Source of the DNA: Oscillospiraceae bacterium
Lineage (GTDB): Bacteria; Bacillota; Clostridia; Oscillospirales; Oscillospiraceae
Assembly: GCA_017622295.1 (NCBI GenBank)
Contig: JAGARK010000026.1
Coordinates: 29,840-93,839 of the forward strand
DNA length: 64,000 bases
Direction of reading: 5' to 3'
This document shows positions 7,677 through 59,951 of the stretch, piece after piece. The notes under the pieces were generated by a model. That model was not told the DNA's origin, ran no database searches, and saw only the letters and a list, made by a program, of their open reading frames with translations. Every line of letters starts with the position of its first letter. Position 1 is the first letter of the stretch. The position numbers and the translations under genes were made by a program.

Positions 7677-7893
7677 TTCAAATTACAGGTTATCGAGCAC
7701 TCAAAGCCCTCCCCTTTGGGGAGGGTGCCCCCCTTAGGGGGCGGGAGAGGTGCAGAACAAGGTTGCGTTTATTGCCGCACTTCGGCAAAATCGTACTGCT
7801 GACATACCTCTTCCGTCACGGCGAAGCCGTGCCACCTTCCCCAGAGGGGAAGGCTTGGCGCTACCGCGCCAGTACGACAAACTGTAATTTGAA
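7677..7893. repeat. Dispersed inverted-terminal-repeat element, copy A (217 bp)
   Basis: Left end TTCAAATTACAGGTTATCGA, right end the inverted TTCAAATTACAGTTTGTCGT. The interior carries several GC-rich palindromes, including CCCTCCCCTTTGGGGAGGG and, at 7831-7854, the CACCTTCCCC / GGGGAAGG core of a second repeat family. No open frame of its own was recognised. It lies between the rpoD terminator and the PBP2 terminator, so it interrupts nothing. Confidence 0.75.
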
Positions 7894-20029: not shown

Positions 20030-20240
20030 GCAGCCTAAGGAGGCTACCAAGACTCCCCTTGAGAGTGAAGCCGAGACTCTGCGCCCGCAGGCGCTTTTCG
20101 GAGCGCAACCGCCCGATGGAGGCTCTCAGCGCGGAGATGAGGGGTGAAAGGCTGGATTATTTGCCGTGCTGACTGTGAGCTTTCACCCCTCCGAGCCGCC
20201 TTACAGCGGCCCACCTCCCCTCAAAGGGGAGGCTTTGGGT
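20030..20240. repeat. GC-rich composite palindromic repeat region
   Basis: Holds AGGGGTGAAAG with a distant inverted CTTTCACCCCT, and a CCTCCCCT / AGGGGAGG hairpin at about 20212-20231 like those in the 7677 element. No coding potential is seen. It fills the gap between the phospholipase gene terminator and the perR promoter. Confidence 0.5.
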
Positions 20241-57640: not shown

Positions 57641-58186
57641 ATGAAAACCCTGCTGCATATCTGCTGCGCCCCCTGCGCCAATCAGCCCATTGAGGTGCTC
57701 CGGGGCGACGGTATCGAAGTCGCCGGATTTTGGTACAATCCCAATATCCACCCCTTCACCGAATACCGCTCCCGGCGCAATACCCTCCGGGAGTACGCCC
57801 AGACCATCGATCTGAAGCTCATCGAGCGGGACGACTACGGCCTGCGGCCCTTCGTCCGGGAGGTGGCTGAAGATATCGACGGCCGCTGCGTCAAGTGCTA
57901 CGAAATGCGCCTGTTTGAAACGGCCAGACAGGCCGCGGAGGGCGGCTTCGACAGCTTTACATCCAGCCTGTTCATCAGCCCCTATCAGAATCATGAGCTG
58001 ATGCGGGAGACTGCGGAACGGGCCGCCTTTGAGTACGGCGTGGAATTTCTCTACCGGGATTTCCGTCCCTATTTCCGGGCCGGTCAGGATTTCGCCCGGG
58101 AGCACGGCTTCTACATGCAAAAATACTGCGGCTGCGTCTTCTCCGAGCAGGAGAGATATCTGAAGCCGAAGAAAATCATTCCCTAA
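57641..58186 (+). CDS. queH: Epoxyqueuosine reductase QueH
   Basis: Last step of queuosine synthesis in organisms without QueG: reduces epoxyqueuosine in tRNA to queuosine. The protein has 181 aa. Conserved cysteines are in HICCAPC (Cys8, Cys9, Cys12), RCVKCYEMRL at about 86-95 and YCGCVFSE at about 165-172, ligands of the iron-sulfur and iron site. FWYNPNIHP and SLFISPYQNH are further family marks. TTCGGAGG precedes the start. Its TAA stop is formed by the first bases of the inverted repeat that bounds the DUF559 element. Confidence 0.93.
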   Translation: MKTLLHICCAPCANQPIEVLRGDGIEVAGFWYNPNIHPFTEYRSRRNTLREYAQTIDLKLIERDDYGLRPFVREVAEDIDGRCVKCYEMRLFETARQAAEGGFDSFTSSLFISPYQNHELMRETAERAAFEYGVEFLYRDFRPYFRAGQDFAREHGFYMQKYCGCVFSEQERYLKPKKIIP

Positions 58187-58725
58187 TACCTTCCCCCTGG
58201 GGCGAAGGTGGCCCGAAGGGCCGGATGAGGGGACCCCGCTGTCAGTTATTGAGAGTATGAAAAGAAATGAGCAACTGAAAAAATACGCCCAGGAACTACG
58301 AAAGAATATGACCAAAGAAGAAAATCTTTTGTGGTACCATTTCCTGCGGCATTATAATGTACAGTTTCGTCGCCAATGCCCGTTTGGGCAGTATATTGTG
58401 GATTTTTACTGTGCCAAAGCACGACTGGTGGTAGAACTGGATGGTTCTCAGCATTACAACCCGCAGACCTTCGAATACGACCGCTCCCGAACTGCCTATC
58501 TGGAATCACTGGATCTGAAAGTTCTACGTTTTTCCAACAGGGAAGTTTTGCAGCAGTTTGAAAACGTGTGTCAAGTGATCGACGTTGCCATTAAAGAACG
58601 CTTTTCGGAAGGTCCCGTTTTCATAGGGAAAGGCCGCAGAGCCTTATCAACAGAGTACTATTCGAGGGCAGAGTCCCCTCATCCGCCCCCTGCGGGGGCA
58701 CCTTCCCCCCAGGGGGAAGGTATTA
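58184..58725. mobile_element. Inverted-repeat-bounded element carrying a DUF559 nuclease gene (542 bp)
   Basis: The left end starts TAATACCTTCCCCCTGGGG, the right end is its inverted copy, and the similarity extends about 50 bp inward (58184-58238 and 58672-58725), including an identical CGGATGAGGGGAC. Each arm has a small internal hairpin whose sequence differs between arms but whose pairing is kept (GCCC-GAA-GGGC and CCCCC-GCA-GGGGG). The DUF559 frame fills the space between. The same CCTTCCCC palindrome occurs without a gene at 1-38 and 7831-7854. Confidence 0.7.
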
Positions 58726-58739
58726 AGATTGGAGGCATT
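58257..58739 (+). CDS. DUF559 (Vsr-like) endonuclease-domain protein, frame open into the next gene
   Basis: DUF559 domain of about 115 aa: AQELRKNMTKEENLLWYHFL at about 11-30, FRRQCPFGQYIVDFYC with the catalytic Asp at about 38-53, and VVELDGSQHY at about 58-67 with the Glu, a PD-(D/E)xK-type site. Such proteins are related to very-short-patch endonucleases; their job is unknown. There is no stop codon of its own. After residue 115 the frame runs through the right inverted repeat (translated as a Pro/Gly-rich stretch) and continues in frame into the methyltransferase up to 59873, giving a 538-aa frame. No good ribosome site precedes 58257. Confidence 0.75.
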
Positions 58740-59873
58740 ATGTCTAAATTTGAATTCGCAGTGCCCTGCCTGTTTGGTCTGGAGGGCATCGCCGGCGACG
58801 AGCTGCGCCGGCTGGATATTGAAAATGTCCGGGTGGAGAACGGCCGCGTCCTCTTCTCCGGCGACGAGCGGGCCATGGCCAAGGCCAATGTAAGCCTGCG
58901 CACCGGCGAACGGGTGCTGATCGTCCTGGCTGCCTTCAAGGCCACCACCTTTGAGCAGCTGTTCCAGGGCGTCTACAAGACTGAGCTGGAAAATTACATT
59001 CCGAAAGACGGCCAGTTCCCCGTCAAGGGCCACTGCCTGAACTCCCAGCTGATGAGCGTGCCCGATTGCCAGGCCATCATCAAGAAGGCCGCCTCCCGCC
59101 GTCTGGGCGAGAAGTACGGCGTAAGCTGGCTGCCCGAGACCGGCACCAGGTATCAGCTGCAGTTTGCCATCATGAACGATCAGGTGACGCTGTATCTGGA
59201 TACCTCCGGCCCCGGCCTGCACAAGCGTGGCTACCGTGCCAACGCCAACGAGGCTCCCCTGCGGGAAACTCTGGCTGCTGCCATGATCCAGGTCGCCCGC
59301 TACCGCGGCAAGGAATTCTTCTGGGATCCCTTCTGCGGCTCCGGTACCATTCCCATTGAGGCCGCCTTCATCGCCAAGAACAAGGCCCCCGGCATGTACC
59401 GCCGCTTCGCTTCCGAAGCCTATGCCTGGTGTGATCCCAAGATCTGGGGCGAAGTCCGCACCGAAGCCAAGGACCGGGAATTCAAGGGCAACTACAAAAT
59501 TCTCGGCTCCGACTGTGATCCCAAGTGCATCTCTCTGGCTATGGCCAACGCCCGGAAGGCCCAGGTAGATAACCTCATCGAGTTCCGGGACGGCGATGCC
59601 ACCAAGATAGATCTGCCCGCTCCCAGCGGCATCATGGTCTGCAATCCCCCCTACGGCCAGCGCATGATGGAGCAGCAGAGCGCACAGCGGCTGTATGCCG
59701 CCTTCGGCAAACATGTACGATACGCCGACGGCTGGAAGAAGTACATCATCACCTCCGAGCCGGAATTCGAGCACTATTTTGGCAAGCGGGCCGACAAGAA
59801 GCGTAAGCTCTACAACGGCATGATCAAGTGCGACTACTATATGTATTTGGATAATCAGAGAAAGAAGAAGTAA
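58740..59873 (+). CDS. THUMP-domain class I SAM-dependent RNA methyltransferase (RlmL/YpsC-like)
   Basis: RNA methyltransferase of 377 aa counted from the internal ATG at 58740, preceded by TTGGAGGCATT. An N-terminal ferredoxin-like/THUMP region covers about 1-160. The methyltransferase domain has DPFCGSGTIPIEAA at about 196-209 as motif I and NPPYGQR at about 303-309 as motif IV, the N2-guanine methyltransferase type of RlmL and YpsC. It likely methylates 23S rRNA; the exact base is unproven. The DUF559 frame upstream is fused in frame, so a longer protein could also form, but the strong internal site argues for separate synthesis. Confidence 0.9.
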   Translation: MSKFEFAVPCLFGLEGIAGDELRRLDIENVRVENGRVLFSGDERAMAKANVSLRTGERVLIVLAAFKATTFEQLFQGVYKTELENYIPKDGQFPVKGHCLNSQLMSVPDCQAIIKKAASRRLGEKYGVSWLPETGTRYQLQFAIMNDQVTLYLDTSGPGLHKRGYRANANEAPLRETLAAAMIQVARYRGKEFFWDPFCGSGTIPIEAAFIAKNKAPGMYRRFASEAYAWCDPKIWGEVRTEAKDREFKGNYKILGSDCDPKCISLAMANARKAQVDNLIEFRDGDATKIDLPAPSGIMVCNPPYGQRMMEQQSAQRLYAAFGKHVRYADGWKKYIITSEPEFEHYFGKRADKKRKLYNGMIKCDYYMYLDNQRKKK

Positions 59874-59877
59874 ACAT

Positions 59878-59951
59878 ATCGCGGCAATCCCCTGCAATAT
59901 TCCGGAATCCTACGGAGATTGCCACGTCGCTTCGCTCCTCGCAATGACATC
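59878..59951. repeat. GGCAATC / GATTGCC repeat with TCGCAATGAC end
   Basis: Contains GGCAATCCCCTGCAATATTC, an inverted GGAGATTGCC, and CGTCGCTTCGCTCCTCGCAA, ending in TGACAT. This is a familiar dispersed repeat of gut Clostridia genomes. A related fragment lies at 12132-12152. Confidence 0.6.

Follow-up and report, generated by a model that had tools for sequence, protein, structure and literature searches.

YcjD-type DUF559 nuclease genes are associated with triplex-code repeats across bacterial phyla and may form a selfish element with them

Introduction

The BoxC or PIT repeats of Escherichia coli have been known since the 1990s, and the way in which they spread has remained unexplained. 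It was reported that these older elements are the same as the TM motif and that TMECO oligonucleotides fold as stable intrastrand triplexes, as judged by CD and NMR (PMC4666352). According to the part of that paper available to us, E. coli K-12 has 23 TMECO copies, ten of which are arranged in five inverted pairs (Holder et al. 2015, PMC4666352), double-stranded TMECO gives no triplex signal, DMS footprinting in vivo revealed no protected triplex, and TM loci are more rearranged among E. coli strains than control sites. Holder et al. (PMC4666352) report that, across 56 E. coli genomes, most TMECO repeats could be placed at a defined locus in every one, and on this ground we take the E. coli copies to be mostly old. 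In the same portion of the paper, mobility-giving functions are described as never having been found around TMECO sites (PMC4666352).

YcjD-type proteins are presented in the accessible literature and database entries as PD-(D/E)xK nucleases related to Vsr. Within the open-licence literature, a scope that excludes bioRxiv, no paper was found that connects either DUF559 or YcjD to BoxC/PIT/TM repeats; further literature drawn on, in the parts available, comprised PMC12907096 (which holds the term DUF559), PMC2267715, and PMC1189080.

An earlier note, made from the letters of one stretch of DNA alone, described a DUF559 nuclease gene framed by inverted arms that also occur without a gene, and compared this layout in its logic to RAYT and REP sequences. 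Here, we describe this locus, its relatives in the same genome and genus, and DUF559 genes in other phyla.

Materials and Methods

The stretch of 64,000 nucleotides (hereafter, the window) corresponds to positions 29840-93839 of contig C16 in the 2 Mb genome of an Oscillospiraceae bacterium, which is approximately 76% complete. A scan of the genus gave 162 matches to PF04480 in 77 of 136 genomes, with up to 6 copies per genome. From these, 134 loci were fetched (five from the own genome, the 29 leading entries of the match list, which mostly represent different genomes, and 100 others from that list), 131 of which had enough flank to be testable. The cross-phylum set consists of the best 80 of at least 567 matches from one scan that was seeded with a Sinorhizobium sequence; 78 of them were testable, including 64 from Pseudomonadota, and this origin accounts for the 45 of 78 that belong to Alphaproteobacteria. 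Arms were located by a finder for Y-loop-R...R' motifs no more than 300 bp from the gene.

The nuclease gene and its flanks

Between queH on the left (57641-58186, PF02677) and a gene for an RlmL-type methyltransferase on the right (58740-59873), the plus strand of the window carries a frame for a DUF559/YcjD-type PD-(D/E)xK nuclease at 58257-58604, where 58604 is the end of the aligned domain and the PF04480 domain itself lies at 58272-58589. The match to PF04480 is strong (E = 1.9e-33, 115 bits, cut-off 20.6), and the only other Pfam domain in the protein was PF18741, below its own cut-off. The catalytic pattern D46, E57-x-D59, and H63 was invariant in 15 sequences. The NCBI DUF559 model PRK09767.1, which we take to be YcjD, matches the protein over almost its full length, yet scores 82 bits where the cut-off is 218; solved relatives detected by profile are the endonuclease-like protein 3hrl (E = 4e-38) and the mobile intron protein 3r3p (E = 6e-4). 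The frame lacks a stop codon: it continues across the right arm and on into the methyltransferase, up to 59873 (58257-59873, 538 aa). Frames of 542 aa were also observed in genomes G011 (beside queH) and G120, and given this recurrence the in-frame fusion of nuclease and methyltransferase may be a kept feature.

The enclosure of this frame by inverted arms, as first noticed in the earlier note, was recovered in the form of two nested pairs: 58184-58214 with 58695-58725 (31 nt, 94% complementary) and 58218-58239 with 58668-58689 (22 nt, 86%). The left arm (58184-58241, plus strand) has a hairpin, H1 (58189-58208, CCTTCCCCCTGGGGCGAAGG), that is slightly decayed by one base (GGGGCGAAGG), followed by a second hairpin, H2 (58210-58222), and by an inner purine stretch, R' (58223-58232, GGATGAGGGG), which mirrors the purine strand of H1 apart from a T in place of one A and some insertions. 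This architecture is common to the arms of the genus. The right arm (58668-58725, minus strand) has an intact H1 at 58701-58720, H2 at 58685-58699, and R' at 58675-58684. The small hairpins of the two arms differ (GGCCCGAAGGGCC on the left vs. GCCCCCTGCGGGGGC on the right) and pairing is kept in both, just as had been noted from the letters.

Mirror pattern of the arms

Throughout the genus, arms are ordered as 5'-Y-loop-R (H1), usually a second hairpin (H2), and then R', the mirror of R. Pairs of R and R' include AAGGGAGG with GGAGGGAT, GAGGGGG with GGGGGAG, and GGGAGAG with GAGAGGG; GGGGGAGA with AGAGGGGG is an example from the cross-phylum set. H2 varies freely and stays paired, with 123 distinct versions among 224 arms, and it differs between the two arms in all 68 two-armed elements. 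A rule by which the two arms avoid like H2 hairpins was considered and discarded, as the 0 of 68 identical pairs compare with only 0.83 expected at random. The H1 core, on the other hand, is common to both arms of an element in 30 of 68 cases vs. 5.8 expected.

For 261 distinct arms, R' scored 0.70 against the mirror of its own R, compared with 0.57 against a direct repeat, 0.57 against the mirrors of other arms, and 0.56 against shuffled sequences (Wilcoxon p = 6e-29, 5e-21, and 5e-30, respectively); these p-values overstate independence because the arms are related sequences, and the choice of A or T in R' nonetheless recurs in at least nine H1 types. In the cross-phylum set (best 80 of at least 567 matches), where H2 was not required, the own mirror beat the direct repeat in 50 loci, tied in 10, and lost in 2. 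The mere presence of a finder hit was rejected as proof of a mirror, since a direct-repeat finder also fires in 115 of 131 genus loci and 59 of 78 cross-phylum loci (best 80 of at least 567); both stretches are G-rich, and only the paired tests separate mirror from direct repeat.

Base by base, in the 224 of 261 arms that could be placed, a mirror G corresponded to G in R' in 1151 of 1268 positions (97 A, 13 T, 7 C), and a mirror A corresponded to A in 337 of 496 positions, with 148 T, 6 G, and 5 C. Such frequent A-to-T replacement with hardly any A-to-G is not the expected outcome of drift. The 97 G-to-A cases depart from the triplex code, and most of them are confined to a handful of CCTTCCCC-type positions. 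This R' pattern is the code of an intrastrand antiparallel purine triplex (Y.R.R') with G.GC, A.AT, and T.AT triads. The arms have the class II triplex motif, that is, Y-loop-R followed by R' as a mirror with G.GC and A(T).AT; the loop length of 1-6 nt used by Holder et al. is found in E. coli-type arms and is exceeded in the window and in most genus arms, where H2 occupies this place. By eye, the G-rich repeats published for archaeal Methanomicrobiaceae also follow the same A-to-T mirror code and read R'-R-Y, at least in the part of the report available (PMC8044849).

Distribution of arms around DUF559 genes

In the genus, the finder detected an arm on some side of 125 of 131 DUF559 genes and on both sides of 100. 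Among the best 80 of at least 567 cross-phylum matches, 64 of 78 testable genes had an arm on any side and 39 had arms on both sides; the any-side counts were 51/64 in Pseudomonadota, 3/3 in Melainabacteria, 2/2 in Chloroflexota, 2/2 in Thermodesulfobacteriota, 1/1 in Nitrospirota, 1/1 in Planctomycetota, 0/1 in Myxococcota, and 4/4 in unplaced sequences. The same finder gave 0 of 30 for YraN, another PD-(D/E)xK gene, 7 of 30 for queH (two of these arms coming from an adjoining DUF559 element, and only one locus having both sides), and 42 of 1183 for control positions in the cross-phylum loci, none of which was two-sided. The arms thus accompany DUF559 genes far more often than control genes, as the earlier note had proposed to check. 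Ten named loci from plasmid and phage collections were also inspected, and the finder fired on some side in eight of them; it missed Picosynechococcus and E. coli, the latter because the TMECO hairpin near ycjD has a mismatch that the finder disallows.

With a strict H1 motif, 67 of 75 cross-phylum loci (best 80 of at least 567) were armed on any side and 37 on both, as against 4.4% and 0.09%, respectively, of 7745 control windows. The strict motif was present on any side of 77 and on both sides of 53 of the 131 genus loci, compared with 5 of 30 (none on both sides) for queH and 0 of 30 for YraN. When 28 of the 54 genus loci without the strict motif were viewed by eye, most had arms with other H1 sequences.

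The finder detected no arm at 6 of the 131 genus loci and at 14 of the 78 cross-phylum loci (best 80 of at least 567), the latter including both Legionella loci, and the view that PF04480 genes in general are armed had to be abandoned, as 24 of 26 weaker matches (under 64 bits) lacked arms and only 2 had them. Eight of these 26 lie in open frames of more than 1000 aa. The other three of the 29 loci fetched in this phylum-wide sample, the strong matches (at least 99 bits), were all armed. The arm link belongs to strong, YcjD-type PF04480 matches; arm-less homologues, which the earlier note had named as evidence against its idea, do exist, mostly among the weak matches but also among the genus and cross-phylum genes counted above.

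The arms also have a preferred direction. For validated H2-bearing arms, R' pointed inward in 168 and outward in 21 cases in the genus, and inward in 35 and outward in 16 cases among the best 80 of at least 567 cross-phylum matches. In Deinococcus and a faecal phage scaffold (L035, L041), the arms were seen to face outward, with H1 as the part closest to the gene, which is the reverse of what is usual in the genus.

Co-inheritance of gene and arms

Across the 136 genomes, 66 contained both strict arms and a DUF559 gene, 18 only arms, 11 only the gene, and 41 neither (Fisher p = 4e-11, Spearman 0.63), and in genomes at least 90% complete the corresponding numbers were 15, 7, 1, and 20 (p = 2e-5), in a test that ignores the relatedness of the genomes. 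As a control for this co-occurrence, the arm pattern read backwards gave 0 matches. The larger the edit distance between two H1 sequences, the less identical are the proteins (Mantel r = -0.41, 0 of 999 permutations, 121 loci), and nucleases of the same genome resembled each other more if their H1 sequences were alike (0.589, 17 pairs) than if these were unlike (0.535, 80 pairs; p = 1e-4). These results show that the nuclease and its arms are inherited together as a unit.

Gene-less copies and variable sites

With up to 3 mismatches allowed, the window contains 12 instances of the sequence CCTTCCCCNNGGGGAAGG, with overlapping registers counted separately, compared with 0.98 expected, and no shuffle out of 100 reached this number. 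The own genome has five DUF559 genes, four of which lie between such arms by eye; next to the fifth (L005), a gene-less armed copy is present on the 3' side alone. The earlier note had placed the core without a gene at two positions of the window. The stretch at 1-38 was rejected as a gene-less copy, as it is an arm of a second DUF559 gene, on the minus strand at 29453-29773 of contig C16, that ends just before the start of the window (C16:29840). The other, within 7677-7893, is indeed a gene-less relative: two inward arms with about 55 nt between them occupy 7706-7856. Three more copies of this relative occur in the genome at 81-83% identity; two are almost full length, and the third spans 132 of 163 nt. 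Each end of the relative matches the arms of a DUF559 element of contig C63 with 91-92% identity. Gene-less copies therefore share their ends with a gene-bearing element of the own genome, as MITE-type elements do. Another copy without a gene, partial and not mentioned in the earlier note, shows a single clear arm at 20186-20235 on the minus strand (CCTCCCC..GGGGAGG, a second hairpin, and R' GGAGGGG), and in genome G102 one gene-less copy found 70 matches including itself, mostly of arm length.

The gene-less copy at 7706-7856 is wrapped by a different small repeat, an outer 19-nt inverted repeat at 7677-7695 and 7875-7893, and this outer repeat (TTCAAATTACAG..TTATCG) also wraps gene-less armed copies elsewhere in the own genome (L302, L303, L304). 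Stretches similar to AATTCCAATTTGTC near several DUF559 elements of the genus resemble it. A further stretch in the window, ATTGCCACGTCGCTTCGCTCCTCGCAATGACA at 59918-59949, looks like another dispersed palindromic repeat, perhaps of the CGTC-tagged kind.

The sites themselves vary between relatives, with gene-bearing and element-free versions at both queH and dnaJ, and gene-less armed versions at queH as well. Among 30 loci behind queH, at least two were gene-bearing (L129, L134) and at least two carried gene-less armed copies (L146, L153), and most of the remaining loci had a short gap or other sequence. The gene-less copies at this site have other H2 hairpins and thus are not simple donors or recipients. 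Other inverted repeats, starting with GTAGGGCGGG, were observed in the queH gap of L130 (genome G054) and L139 (genome G008), indicating that the gap tolerates several kinds of small inserts. Twelve loci upstream of dnaJ comprised six gene-bearing ones, four without an armed element, one with another gene, and one that was unreadable; the names dnaK and dnaJ for the neighbouring genes are our reading of their sequences. The search for element-free sites between queH and the methyltransferase, suggested in the earlier note, was therefore successful there and also upstream of dnaJ. Insertion junctions with target duplication or clean excision were not found among these relatives, which are too diverged for base-exact empty sites. 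Genomes G060 and G062 were considered as a near-identical pair for an exact empty site and set aside: their queH places are alike, but the G060 query matched G062 only partly.

The ycjD locus of E. coli

In E. coli, ycjD is annotated as a DUF559 gene, and the sequence of TMECO no. 9 is present, unchanged, between ycjD and fabI in K-12 DH10B, downstream of ycjD. A 44-nt query containing the TMECO no. 9 repeat was found in 5376 of 5426 E. coli genomes, at a median of 19 places per genome, and the ycjD version of the sapF-fabI gap was at least 80% covered in 3363 of 5426. In the loci viewed (L039, L125, L126), the sapF-fabI gap holds, depending on the E. coli lineage, either ycjD with a TM repeat or the efflux operon eefRABCD (described in the available part of PMC12817139). 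E. coli was accordingly rejected as a clean empty-site case, as two strains without ycjD at sapF have efflux genes there.

Discussion

The layout first proposed, i.e., a nuclease gene with arms and gene-less relatives, is strongly supported and extends more widely than had been suggested, through the genus and across phyla. On balance, we consider the unit to be probably a selfish genetic element in which two inverted arms accompany a single small nuclease gene of the YcjD-type DUF559 family, and which has non-autonomous relatives. We infer that the nuclease acts on the arms and that the unit is mobile. The arm strand would fold when it becomes single-stranded during replication, the nuclease would recognise or cut either this fold or its junction, and the unit would be copied during break repair, to gene-less armed copies (homing) or to new sites; the gene-less armed copies, including BoxC/PIT/TMECO of E. 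coli, would then be the non-autonomous relatives of the unit. Several points count against this reading. By itself, a nuclease cannot join DNA, and gene and arms would be inherited together in any linked unit. The 18 genomes of 136 with strict arms but no DUF559 gene and the 11 with the gene but no strict arm also weigh against it, as do the genes of both sets at which the finder detected no arm and the failure to find an insertion junction with target duplication or clean excision. From the E. coli work, the mostly old look of the TMECO copies and the negative results with DMS footprinting in vivo and with double-stranded TMECO point the same way. In addition, the second, outer inverted repeat may have moved the gene-less copies of the own genome, which would argue against spread driven by the nuclease. 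A broader proposal, which we regard as tentative and somewhat short of an even chance, is that of a mobile element class spanning phyla, in which a lone PD-(D/E)xK nuclease would recognise its ends as three-stranded DNA, BoxC/PIT/TM repeats would be non-autonomous copies, and triplex folding would be a signal for spread in many bacteria.

The selfish element has two main rivals, namely homing into pairs of arms that lack a gene, and DNA repair on behalf of the host. The nuclease might be an invader, similar to a homing endonuclease, that has lodged between pre-existing arms; these would be older and spread by another enzyme, and the nuclease would cut empty armed pairs. The queH site, with DUF559 in L129 and L134 and gene-less copies in L146 and L153, fits such an origin, as do the profile match to the mobile intron protein 3r3p and the 91-92% identity between the ends of own-genome gene-less copies and a gene-bearing element, but the H1 types track the protein, unlike what a recent invader of arbitrary arms would leave, and the gene-less copies at queH carry other H2 hairpins. 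We judge this origin possible but rather unlikely; its probability and that of the selfish element do not belong to a set that sums to one, because the two readings overlap.

Alternatively, a structure-specific housekeeping nuclease could clear or repair triplex or hairpin obstacles and adjoin its own substrate for regulation, the repeats being spread by other means. Enzymes of the DUF559/Vsr-like kind have been linked to DNA repair: Caulobacter VsrA was proposed as a repair nuclease, and a methylase mutant is reported to require it for its SOS response. In addition, the more frequent rearrangement of E. coli TM loci relative to control sites would also suit this role (PMC4666352, in the part available). 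It is harder to reconcile with the patchy presence of the gene (77 of 136 congeneric genomes), with up to 6 copies in one genome, with arms beside the gene that mostly face inward (168 vs. 21 outward in the genus), and with relatives that have the same site without the element, and we therefore regard a repair role as improbable. Plain hitchhiking, in which C-rich palindromes and small ORFs gather in tolerant intergenic gaps and the link is a by-product, is very improbable in our estimation: the queH and dnaJ gaps do hold other repeats, and 7 of 30 queH genes have arms nearby (two of them from an adjoining DUF559 element), but two-sided framing of 100/131 DUF559 genes vs. 0/30 for YraN, 1/30 for queH, and 0/1183 positions, the 24 of 26 weak PF04480 matches without arms, and the coevolution of arms and gene all stand against it.

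To our knowledge, and within the literature searched, the link between YcjD-type nucleases and triplex-code repeats across phyla is new. It points to a likely enzyme partner for the BoxC/PIT/TM repeats, with ycjD of E. coli K-12 as a laboratory system, and makes it possible to ask how the repeats originate and whether triplex DNA serves as a recognition signal in biology. The link likewise offers a functional hypothesis for DUF559 proteins, which are still labelled by Pfam as being of unknown function.

Comparison with known systems

The Vsr-like endonucleases, E. coli YcjD, 3hrl, and 3r3p belong to the same nuclease superfamily as the enzyme of the window; flanking triplex repeats, in contrast, are absent from the accessible parts of the descriptions of Vsr-like endonucleases and YcjD. 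The CGTC-tagged REPs (PMC3733652) are also palindromic repeats of multiple phyla without a known transposase; compared by description and not by consensus sequence, they may or may not be kin of the arms.

With RAYT/REP and its GTAG-tagged repeats (the REPtron; PMC3733652, PMC3116915, and PMC8266576), the unit shares an enzyme gene flanked by palindromic repeats and many gene-less copies. However, its enzyme is a PD-(D/E)xK nuclease, unlike the HUH tyrosine transposase of RAYT (PMC3733652, in the part available), and its arms are characterised by a mirror repeat. At the window locus, no HUH tyrosine transposase was found (only PF04480 and the PF18741 match below its cut-off), and by eye neither of the two window arms has a GTAG tag at the foot of a hairpin. 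Owing to these two differences, the DUF559 unit is not a REPtron, though alike in working; the RAYT/REP analogy first drawn for this locus thus holds for the logic and fails for the two RAYT features looked at.

The closest resemblance is to BoxC/PIT/TMECO. No enzyme has been linked to those repeats, whereas many arm pairs of the genus enclose a nuclease gene, and the second loop of the genus arms is usually an H2 hairpin, longer than the 1-6 nt searched for in E. coli, with H1 sequences that vary widely. Both nevertheless have the class II purine motif Y-R-R' with G.GC and A(T).AT triads and many intergenic copies, and K-12 itself has five inverted pairs and, with copy no. 9, a repeat of this kind between ycjD and fabI.
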